This document shows, one piece after another, positions 1 through 6,640 of a stretch of DNA of 35,693 nt (the stretch's first letter is position 1; every line of letters begins with the position of its first letter). The DNA is from an uncultured Actinomycetes bacterium (GTDB taxonomy: Bacteria > Actinomycetota > Actinomycetes > Nanopelagicales > Nanopelagicaceae), in contig CAIYRR010000054.1 of NCBI GenBank assembly GCA_903928745.1, positions 1-35,693 of the forward strand, in the 5' to 3' direction. The translations under genes and the position numbers were made by a program. The notes beneath the pieces were generated by a model. That model was not told the DNA's origin. It searched no databases and was given only the letters and a program-made list of their open reading frames with translations.

Positions 1-3020
<3,020 letters not shown>

Positions 3021-3021
<1 letters not shown>

Positions 3022-4760
3022 CACAACTCCTGCGAATCCCAGTCGGGAGCAATCCCCCGAGCAATCATGATTTCATCATTTGATGTTCCAGCCGCAACCA
3101 TTGGCCAAACCATCGCATCACGGAAAACTCTGAAATCCACAACGACTGGTTGATCGTTGATAGACATCGCTTCCTTGATGACCGCATCTACATCTTCAGG
3201 TCGCTCACACCGCAGTCCTGCACATCCCATTGCATCTGCCAGTTTTACGAAATCTGGAATGCGCTTTGAATGTAAGGAAGTGTTGGAATAGCGACCTTCA
3301 TAGAACATGGTCTGCCACTGGCGAACCATGCCCAAACTTTCGTTGTTGATGATGGCGACTTTGATAGGGATGTTATTGAGTGAGCAGGTGACGAGTTCTT
3401 GATTCGTCATTTGAAAACATCCGTCGCCATCAATTGCCCAGACAGTCGTGTCAGGCATGCCAACTTTTGCTCCCATAGCCGCAGGAACTGCGTATCCCAT
3501 GGTTCCAAGTCCGCCAGAGTTCAACCAAGTGCGAGGCTTTTCATATTTTACAAATTGGGAAGCCCACATTTGATGTTGCCCAACACCTGCAACATAAATG
3601 GAATCAGGTCCAGAAATCGCGCCAATTCGTTCGATGACATATTGAGGAGAAGTAGAACCATCTACTGGTTTGTCATAACCCAACGGGTATGCCGCGCGAA
3701 GTGATGACATTTGGCGCCACCAAACGGTGAGATCGGGTTTGTTTTTCTTGAACTCTTCCTGAAGTGCCAGAATCAGCGCGTTCAAAGTATGAGCAAGATC
3801 GCCAATGATTGGGACATCAGCAAATCGATTCTTTCCAATTTCCGCAGGATCAATATCTGCATGAATAACTTTTGCATGGACTGCGAAGGAGGAAAGTTTT
3901 CCCGTCACGCGATCATCAAAGCGAGCGCCAAGCGTGATGAGAAGATCGCTCTTTTGCAGCGCAGTAACTGCTGCAACGGTGCCATGCATTCCGGGCATTC
4001 CTAAATGCAAGTTATGACTGTCAGGGAATGCACCGCGTGCCATAAGAGTAGTAACGACAGGTGCACCCAGAAGTTCTGCAATCTGCATCAATTGCTTTGA
4101 TGCATTCGCTTTAATGATTCCGCCACCTACGTAGAAAACAGGTTTCTTAGCCTGGGCAATCAAGGCAACAGCATCGCGAATTGCTTGAGCATCTGGTTCT
4201 ACTTGTGGTTTATATCCAGCAAATTGAATGCTCGTTGGATATGAAAAATTTGTCATTTTCTGCAAGGCATCTTTTGCGATATCAACAAGAACAGGTCCTG
4301 GACGTCCCGTGCTTGCAATGTGGAATGCTTCGGCAATCGCACGAGGAATATCATCGGGATTGGTAACTAAATAATTATGTTTCGTTATCGGCATGGTTAT
4401 GCCGCGAATATCTGCCTCTTGAAAGGCATCAGTTCCAATGGCGGCCGATGGCACTTGCCCCGTAATTGCAACGAGTGGAACGGAATCCATTTGGGCATCA
4501 GCTAATGGAGTTACAAGGTTGGTAGCACCCGGACCTGAAGTGGCCATGCAGACGCCAACGCGACCCGTAACTTGGGCGTACCCCGTGGCGGCATGGCCAG
4601 CGCCTTGCTCATGTCGAACCAAGATATGGCGAATTTTGGAATCGTAAAGTGGATCGTAGACAGGCAAGACTGCGCCACCAGGAATTCCAAACATGACATC
4701 GACGCCAGCGGCTTCTAAGGATTTAACGAGGCTGCTCGCCCCAGTCATCTCTGTTCCCAT
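3021..4760 (-). CDS. ilvB: Acetolactate synthase large (catalytic) subunit
   Basis: ThDP/FAD enzyme that condenses two pyruvates to 2-acetolactate, or pyruvate plus 2-oxobutyrate to acetohydroxybutyrate. This is the committed step to Val, Leu and Ile. The N-terminal pyrimidine-binding domain carries the catalytic Glu51 in [13 protein letters not shown]. The central FAD domain follows, then the C-terminal ThDP/Mg2+ motif [11 protein letters not shown]…NN. I choose ATG 4760 ([10 protein letters not shown]), which has GGGAG 5 nt upstream; a GTG at 4775 is in frame but lies upstream of that ribosome site. The product is 579 aa, normal for the family. It is preceded by a leader with a Val/Ile-rich peptide and an intrinsic terminator, so transcription is probably attenuated by charged Val/Ile tRNA level. 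Confidence 0.97.
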
Positions 4761-4800
4761 CTCTACTCCCTTCACTACAGTTCGAATAATTTGCCCTAGT

Positions 4801-4832
4801 AATGCAAAAACCCTCAGTGAATAACTGAGGGT
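4801..4832 (-). terminator. Attenuator terminator in the ilvB leader
   Basis: Read on the minus strand, CCCTCAGT and ACTGAGGG form a perfect 8-bp stem (arms 4831-4824 and 4818-4811) with a 5-nt loop. It can extend by a T-A pair at the base and is followed by TTTTT (4810-4806). It lies between the leader peptide and ilvB, about 40 nt before the ilvB start, where an amino-acid attenuator terminator is expected. Confidence 0.85.
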
Positions 4833-4833
4833 A

Positions 4834-4864
4834 GCGCGCGATCAAATGGAACTAGATCGCGCGC
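4834..4864 (-). promoter_or_regulatory. Leader-peptide (pause-type) hairpin of the ilvB attenuator
   Basis: GCGCGCGATC (4864-4855) and GATCGCGCGC (4843-4834) form a perfect 10-bp stem with an 11-nt loop. The first arm is made of the last leader-peptide codons (Arg-Ala-Ile), and the TAG stop is in the loop. A ribosome reaching the stop would therefore melt this stem. This matches the position of the 1:2 hairpin in classical attenuators. I could not see a convincing 2:3 antiterminator by eye. Confidence 0.65.
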
Positions 4865-4890
4865 TTTTCAATCACTACTACTGAAATCAT
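4852..4890 (-). CDS. ilvBNC leader peptide (attenuation peptide)
   Basis: A 12-codon ORF reading MISVVVIEKRAI then TAG. Six of twelve residues are the operon's end products (three Val, three Ile, with VVVI consecutive). Just downstream come a stem built from its own last codons and an intrinsic terminator, then ilvB. By analogy with enteric ilv leaders and the Corynebacterium ilvBNC leader, ribosome stalling at Val/Ile codons should report charged-tRNA supply. The start can be read two ways: GGAG (4903-4900) lies 9 nt upstream as a Shine-Dalgarno, or a -10 hexamer GAGAAT ends 6 nt before the ATG, which would put the transcript start at the A of ATG. It is not homologous to any enzyme. Confidence 0.8.
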   Translation of the reverse strand: MISVVVIEKRAI

Positions 4891-4896
4891 GGGCTT

Positions 4897-4926
4897 ATTC
4901 TCCAACTACAAGCGCAAAACCGTCAA
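4897..4926 (-). promoter_or_regulatory. Candidate promoter of the ilvB leader/operon
   Basis: TTGACG (-35, 4926-4921), an 18-nt spacer, then GAGAAT (-10, 4902-4897). Six bases separate the -10 from the leader-peptide ATG, so the predicted transcript would begin at or next to the ATG. The -35 is five of six to the SigA consensus; the -10 keeps only the key A2, A4, A5 and T6. Confidence 0.5.
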
Positions 4927-4930
4927 CCCC

Positions 4931-4946
4931 TGAGATTGTCATCTCA
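4931..4946. promoter_or_regulatory. Inverted repeat upstream of the ilvB promoter
   Basis: TGAGAT-tgtc-ATCTCA, a perfect 6-bp inverted repeat. It lies between the ilvD stop and the -35 of the ilv leader promoter. It has no U-tract on either strand, so a terminator is unlikely. It is placed like an operator or activator site, but no factor can be named. Confidence 0.35.
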
Positions 4947-4966: not shown

Positions 4967-6640
4967 CTAATCGCAGACCGCACCTTTACTGGCAGATCCA
5001 ACCAATTTTGCGTATTTGGAGAGAACTCCACGGGTGTACTTATGTGGAATCGGGACGAAGCCAATTCGCCGAGTGGCTAATTCTTCTTCCGAAACTAATA
5101 AATCAAGCGTGCGTTTTACCGTATCGATACGGATACGGTCGCCATCTTTCACAAAAGCGATGGGTCCGCCTTCGGATGCCTCAGGTGCAACGTGACCGAC
5201 GCACAGTCCAGTGGTACCTCCTGAGAATCGTCCATCTGTGAGCAAGAGCACGGATTTACCGAGTCCGGCACCTTTGATTGCGCCAGTAATCATCAACATT
5301 TCGCGCATTCCCGGTCCACCCTTTGGGCCTTCATAACGAATGACGACAACATCACCAGCTTGAATCGTGCCATTTTCAAGTGCATCCATCGCATGTTGTT
5401 CGCGTTCGAAAACTCGGGCAGGTCCCTCAAAAAGTTCAACACCCACTCCAGCAGTTTTTGTTACTGCGCCTTCAGGTGAAAGTGATCCGTTCAGAATTGT
5501 TATTCCACCGCCAAGTGAAAGAGGGTTACTCGTTGCGCGGAGAATTTCGCCATCTGCATCAGGTGGGGCGATATCGGCCAAGTTTTCAGCCATTGTTTTC
5601 CCGGTAACTGTAAGGACATCGCCATGGAGGAGACCTGCATCAAGAAGCGCTTTCAAAACTACGGGAACTCCACCAACTTTATCCATGTCACTCATAACAA
5701 AGCGACCGAATGGTTTGAGATCGCCCAGCAATGGAACTTTGGATCCGATTCGATGGAAATCTTCTAGGTCGAGATCAACATCTGCCTCATGTGCGATTGC
5801 AAGTAGATGGAGCACGGCATTTGTCGAACCACCTAGCGCCATAACTGCAGTGATTGCATTTTCAAATGCAGGTTTAGTCAAAATATCGCGAGTGGTTATT
5901 CCTTGACGAATGAGCTCTACAACCGCAGCACCGGCTTTTACGGAATAGGCATCACGACGACGATCAACAGCAGGTGGTGCAGCCGAACCAGGAAGAGAAA
6001 GTCCAATTGCCTCCCCCACGGTTGCCATGGTGTTTGCTGTGTACATGCCACCACATGCGCCTTCACCTGGGCATATCGCGCGTTCGATTTTGTCTACTTG
6101 CTCTTGTGAAATTAATCCACGAGCACAAGCACCCACAGCTTCGAATGCATCAATGATCGTTACATCTTTACCATCTACTTGGCCGGGCAAAGTGGAACCT
6201 GCGTAAACAAAAACGCTCGCTACATCGATACGTGCAGCAGCCATCATCATTCCTGGTAGCGATTTATCGCAACCTGCAAACGTGACCATTCCATCAAGAC
6301 GCTCGGCTTGCATCACTGTCTCGACTGAATCGGCAATTACTTCGCGTGAAACAAGTGAGAAGTGCATACCTTCGTGTCCCATAGAAATTCCATCAGAGAC
6401 GGAGATCGTGCCAAATTGCATGGGAAAACCCCCCGCATCAATAACTCCTTGACGCGAAGCTTTTGCAAGACGATCGAGGGATAAATTGCATGGAGTGATT
6501 TCGTTCCACGAAGAGACGATGCCAATCTGAGGCTTCACCCAATCTTCATCTCCCATTCCCACTGCGCGCAACATTCCGCGCGCTGGGGCGCGTTCCATAC
6601 CATCTGTAACAAGACCCGATCGAGGTTTCATTGTGCTCAT
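4967..6640 (-). CDS. ilvD: Dihydroxy-acid dehydratase
   Basis: Fe-S enzyme that dehydrates 2,3-dihydroxy-isovalerate and -methylvalerate to the 2-oxo acids, the step after IlvC. At 557 aa it is normal length for IlvD/Edd. Three cluster cysteines are seen: Cys51 (ITPCN), Cys124 (AGCDKSLPG, the family signature) and Cys196 ([14 protein letters not shown]). The second signature is near the C-terminus ([13 protein letters not shown]). ATG 6640 has no Shine-Dalgarno; a TACGAT hexamer ends 6 nt upstream, suggesting leaderless initiation. It is transcribed toward ilvB but separated from it by the attenuator leader, so it may read through or be independently controlled. Function is firm; the start could also be Met4. 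Confidence 0.96.

Follow-up and report, generated by a model that had tools for sequence, protein, structure and literature searches.

A probable ribosome-mediated attenuator with a short Val/Ile leader peptide upstream of ilvBNC in an uncultured actinobacterium

An attenuator of the ilvBNC operon of Corynebacterium glutamicum was reportedly described by Morbach in 2000. Attenuation of actinobacterial ilvB was predicted in 2005 (PMC1262725), and an ilvB attenuator has been described as a motif (ilvB-II) in Corynebacterium (PMC10272879). The C. glutamicum leader peptide ilvL (MTIIRLVVVTARRLP) was placed in a three-hairpin model with a GCC common to antiterminator and terminator; the mapped transcript start and the start codon of the leader were one nucleotide apart, expression fell by 80% on loss of that codon, replacing Val with Ala codons abolished the response, and terminator mutations raised expression (PMC11857589). 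In Mycobacterium tuberculosis, changing LVVI to AAAA abolished induction of ilvB1NC, and a short transcript ended in the leader (PMC13236596). The ilvL of Streptomyces lividans is leaderless (PMC8079986), and PMC1262725, in citing work on S. coelicolor, gives substitution of the ilvB control codons as being without effect. Among the listed results of a literature search there was no paper on attenuation in Nanopelagicales.

The window analyzed here, a stretch of 35,693 nucleotides, is contig C54 of a 1.65 Mb assembly of 132 contigs. The closest relatives of its ilvB (78–89% identity) were mostly from uncultured actinobacterial assemblies, some of them labelled Nanopelagicales or Nanopelagicaceae. 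Sequence inspection and scans placed on the minus strand, in order, a promoter, an ATG, a leader ORF, a hairpin (A), a terminator hairpin (T) and ilvBNC-serA. This element is very likely a ribosome-mediated transcription attenuator of ilvBNC(-serA), one that very probably restricts expression of the branched-chain amino acid genes to times when these amino acids are scarce. The features are the following:

4931..4946, minus strand: perfect palindrome TGAGAT-GACA-ATCTCA (TGAGATGACAATCTCA), 4 nt upstream of the -35 element
4921..4926, minus strand: -35 element TTGACG, from the scan; TTGAC kept in 80 of 82 leaders
4897..4902, minus strand: -10 element GAGAAT, from the scan, 6 nt before the leader ATG
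4852..4890, minus strand: leader ORF MISVVVIEKRAI, ATG to TAG, read from the sequence, with conserved Val/Ile runs
4833..4865, minus strand: hairpin A, 11 bp, candidate antiterminator, from folding and compensatory changes
4810..4832, minus strand: intrinsic terminator hairpin T, 9 bp, from scan and folding, followed by TTTT at 4809–4806
3021..4760, minus strand: ilvB (Pfam TPP_enzyme N/M/C)
2464..3024, minus strand: ilvN (ACT_AHAS_ss, ALS_ss_C)
1398..2522, minus strand: ilvC (KARI_N, KARI_C)
2..1432, minus strand: serA-like gene (2-Hacid_dh, PGDH_inter), extending past the window edge

The ATG at 4760 is the likely start of ilvB, as a good Shine-Dalgarno sequence (GAAGGGAG) lies before it at 4773–4766; the GTG at 4775, listed as the start, is a weaker candidate. 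The serA-like gene follows ilvC directly, with an overlap at the end of the latter, and probably belongs to the same operon; serine synthesis may therefore come under the attenuator as well. Upstream of the leader and on the same strand lies ilvD, which ends at 4967.

The promoter matched 9 of 12 consensus positions with a spacer of 18 nt, and one promoter-like site was found vs. 0.5 expected in shuffled sequences. The leader ORF has 12 codons (ATG at 4890, TAG at 4852) with three Val, three Ile and no Leu, and the control codons GTA GTA GTG ATT (VVVI) occupy 4881–4870. The promoter-like pair, the VVVI run, the three Ile and the lack of Leu had all been read in an initial annotation, and each was recovered on the minus strand. 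That annotation had no mention of a leaderless ORF, of A at the antiterminator position, of the palindrome beside the -35 element or of the ilvB attenuators previously described in several Actinobacteria. Among 82 leaders, the distance from the -10 element to the start codon was 6 nt in 69 cases, 7 nt in 12 and 5 nt in one, the script having considered spacings of 5–7 nt only; this spacing suggests a leaderless transcript, with RNA predicted to start at about the leader ATG. The start codon was ATG in 79 and GTG in three; in the same-genus leader L096 a GTG stood at the same distance from the -10 element. The 82 leaders encoded 51 distinct peptides, the residue composition was 22% Val, 17% Ile and 4% Leu, and 25 lacked Leu. 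A weak 7-bp hairpin was also predicted within the ORF (4886–4866, minus strand), flush against A and with no base in common with it.

The arms of hairpin A are AGCGCGCGATC (4865–4855) and GATCGCGCGCT (4843–4833), the first beginning 4 nt past the end of the control codons and consisting of the last codons of the ORF. A hairpin at that position had been described initially with 10 bp and the terminator stem before ilvB with 8 bp; both are in place, with stems of 11 and 9 bp. Folded alone, A reached -20.4 kcal/mol (z = -5.2) and T -13.6 kcal/mol (z = -4.7), and the segment 4890–4803 folded to -38.6 kcal/mol (z = -7.4), with none of 200 shuffled sequences as good. In the window A abuts T at a distance of 0, no nucleotide lying between them and none being shared. 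Alignment of 18 leaders revealed eight pairs with changes on both sides, vs. a shuffled mean of 5.2 (2 of 500), and a covariation score of 0.206 vs. 0.143 (0 of 500), while slid versions stayed at or below 0.147; the covariation and the Val/Ile codon conservation proposed initially as checks among relatives were both present. In a wider leader set, positions of A alternated between CG, UA and AU pairs, although each hairpin there was its own predicted fold, which biases the comparison towards paired states. The compensation is not explained by coding, since only the 5' arm of A is coding (KRAI, HELAI, ERAL) and the 3' arm is non-coding. The distance between A and T was within -3 to +3 nt in 85 of 98 family leaders vs. 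37 of 98 with shuffled upstream sequence, and within 3 nt in 47 of 55 other Actinobacteria against a null of 18.

The window leader has the traits of an ilvL-type attenuator: it lies upstream of ilvB, its branched-chain-codon ORF ends in a hairpin, an intrinsic terminator follows, and in the footprint model the hairpin was formed on a stall and covered with the ribosome at the stop codon. It very probably belongs to the known actinobacterial ilvB attenuators of Corynebacterium, M. tuberculosis and Streptomyces. With C. glutamicum it shares the location upstream of ilvBNC, a Val-rich leader, a predicted leaderless or near-leaderless start and an antiterminator hairpin past the control codons that directly adjoins the terminator, while its peptide is shorter and devoid of Leu. 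Neither the shared GCC nor the anti-antiterminator H1 of that species was found; with no H1-type competitor of A in the window leader, an untranslated leader should read through. Likeness to M. tuberculosis ilvB1NC, judged by its published description, lies in a control-codon uORF (LVVI there), a terminator with a U-tract, and an antiterminator freed by a stalled ribosome and masked by one at the stop codon, but in M. tuberculosis mutually exclusive hairpins were proposed and Leu is among the control codons. Hairpin A thus occupies the antiterminator position of both species, being spared by the stall. In S. lividans and S. coelicolor (ilvL MRTRILVLGKRVG; PMC8079986, PMC1262725) a leaderless peptide, as predicted for the window, and a terminator precede ilvB, and a hairpin also lies near T, though these peptides have more Leu. 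The ilvB-II motif (PMC10272879) likewise has a uORF over the first hairpin and a second hairpin with a U-tract upstream of ilvB, but its proposed antiterminator (P1 loop with the right shoulder of P2) is not present in the window leader. An Rfam scan of this leader matched no RNA family. Particular to the lineage are the very short Val/Ile leader, the lack of shared boundary bases, the lack of an anti-antiterminator and a dedicated palindrome. With this comparison, a mode of control described chiefly in Corynebacterium, Mycobacterium and Streptomyces extends to a family of small-genome freshwater actinobacteria (Nanopelagicales-like relatives).

The element order was identical in the closest loci, both by eye and by script, and the proposal of a Val/Ile attenuator of ilvBNC was supported in that the short ORF, the Val/Ile run and the terminator were conserved across the family. 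A collection of 98 leaders was assembled from the ilvB-upstream regions of 80 family genomes, 17 same-genus loci and the window. A fixed pipeline searched for a terminator, a hairpin at most 3 nt from it, an ORF having three or more V/I/L codons in a row and ending in or at that hairpin, and a promoter 5–7 nt before the start. All four were found in 80 of the 98 leaders, which are all related by descent, and in none of 98 reverse complements or 196 Markov-simulated sequences. When 11 failures were printed, the leader was visible by eye in most (e.g., L161, L132, L097, L125, L127, and L141); most inspected failures were therefore program misses and 80 of 98 is a lower bound. A covariance model (R1) returned a single site in the own genome (E = 6e-19; next best 0.16) and one site each in 42 of 118 genomes of the class, also a lower bound because the model has only 10 base pairs and its variable loops align poorly. 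By comparison of coordinates, the site lay shortly upstream of ilvB and on the same strand in all 33 non-family hit genomes in which ilvB was found.

The palindrome TGAGAT-N4-ATCTCA had its sole exact match in the own genome at this promoter; of 21 same-genus genomes, 18 contained a single exact match each, and there were no control matches. The 17 other same-genus loci read (among L089–L107) all lay at the ilvB leader promoter; these loci were collected through the palindrome and are not independent for it. When up to two mismatches were allowed, 67 of 82 leaders had it, at positions -55 to -57 relative to the leader start codon, and it was absent from the 16 genomes outside the family. It is probably the operator of a regulator; NdgR and LtbR were rejected as binders, their published motifs not matching. 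Its occurrence once per genome suggests that branched-chain amino acid synthesis has a second regulator in this lineage; it would be unusual for a regulator to have only one dedicated site. One-mismatch sites elsewhere in the genome were within ORFs at L085, L086, and L088 (of L085–L088).

The anatomy and conservation of the leader were accompanied by one ribosome effect, since A alone depended on ribosome position in the folding models; the direction of the response may be taken from the characterized relatives. RNA polymerase would start at the A of the leader ATG or beside it, and the 12-codon ORF, predicted to be leaderless, would be translated by a ribosome. If charged Val-tRNA and Ile-tRNA were in ample supply, the ribosome would reach the stop codon and cover the 5' arm of A, T would form and transcription would stop; with Val or Ile scarce, it would stall on GTA GTA GTG ATT, A would fold first, T would fail and ilvBNC(-serA) would be transcribed. 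With a footprint modelled to about 13 nt past the A-site codon, the 5' arm of A was wholly free with the ribosome at the first Val, 36% free at the last Ile and not free at the stop codon. With the ribosome halted at that last Ile codon, 7 of the 11 nt of this arm would be hidden, so the leader may respond less sensitively to Ile than to Val. In partition functions over 82 leaders, A formed in 98% when the ribosome was stalled on the first control codon and in 0% once it had reached the stop codon; in the untranslated, ribosome-free window leader the probability of A was 1.0. Folding with and without a ribosome on the Val codons had been proposed initially; A differed between a ribosome on the Val codons and one at the stop codon, while basal pairing of T in the window stayed at 0.95 in all ribosome states.

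A stall breaks the first hairpin of the classical trp leader, whose control codons are part of the first arm, whereas in the window leader a stall would spare A. Folding and a complementarity search of the window leader found no trp-type 2:3 antiterminator exclusive with a 3:4 terminator, which agrees with the initial annotation that the switch may depart from the classical four-arm model. A candidate pairing of UCAGU (Ser-Val codons) with ACUGA of T (7 bp with G-U) was rejected; this class of pairing occurred at shuffled level, and the UCAGU segment would lie under the stalled ribosome. Because A is flush against T without a linker, the basal pairs of T might be unable to close in the RNA exit channel once A has folded. 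That A disables T through such contact rather than through alternative base pairing has about an even chance of being right; the two hairpins are compatible in free RNA, and folding does not demonstrate a contact mechanism. The broader version, in which there is no alternative pairing at all, A blocks T purely by abutment in the exit channel, an untranslated leader reads through and this is the general mode at actinobacterial ilvB, is offered only tentatively.

A classical base-pair exchange, with an antiterminator formed between one arm of T and some other part of the leader, would bring the locus closer to published models, namely P1 loop with P2 3' arm in C. ulcerans (PMC10272879) and the shared GCC in C. 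glutamicum (PMC11857589). It agrees with the folding of some relatives, in which A and T have 1–3 nt in common (gaps of -1 to -3), and with L134, an overlapping leader in which free T was predicted to lose to A. In the window, however, the two hairpins have no nucleotide in common, and basal pairing of T is insensitive to the ribosome. Complementarity of leader segments to the arms of T, as well as between the middle arms, where the initial annotation had also seen no pairing, did not exceed shuffled sequence in 75 leaders; the loop of A could form at most 4 bp with the 3' arm of T in the window and was not above shuffles in the same 75. With unchanged basal pairing and no segment complementary above shuffled level, A, if it antiterminates, probably does not do so by pairing exchange, and we regard exchange as unlikely. 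Variants without shared nucleotides question the generality of the published model of hairpins competing for a boundary trinucleotide, and contact and a 1–3-base overlap may be variants of a single mechanism.

If T were instead a constitutive terminator and control lay mainly at the promoter through the palindrome, the leader peptide would be a relic or of minor effect. Within the genus, palindrome and leader are equally conserved. In S. coelicolor, NdgR is a regulator that binds at ilvB, and the inert control codon changes in that species, as far as the citing source relates them, would fit. But the leader occurs class-wide while the palindrome is confined as described above, and the Val/Ile runs, the stop position and the compensated hairpin A have been kept through sequence change, unlike a relic, which makes this reading improbable. 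A non-regulatory origin, as a chance short ORF beside the terminator of upstream ilvD, would draw on the position of ilvD, and T could also stop ilvD read-through. In the family, however, promoter, ORF and A separate ilvD from T with constant spacing, the arrangement was found in 0 of 294 controls, and the element lies upstream of ilvB across the class; conservation refutes this origin, which has next to no probability left.

With ribosome-mediated attenuation as the preferred reading, many natural leader variants are now available for testing how the attenuator switches. L107 (G023:C48, upstream of ilvB), from a more distant family member, had a different terminator (CCCACTGAAAAGTCAGTGGG) and retained the promoter, the palindrome, a leader ending in VIVVVIR and the abutting hairpin. 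In genus g5 (L159, L173, and L174) the leader was MLSRISVRLERAS, without a Val/Ile run and with both hairpins kept; the attenuator of this genus may be degraded or may sense something else.
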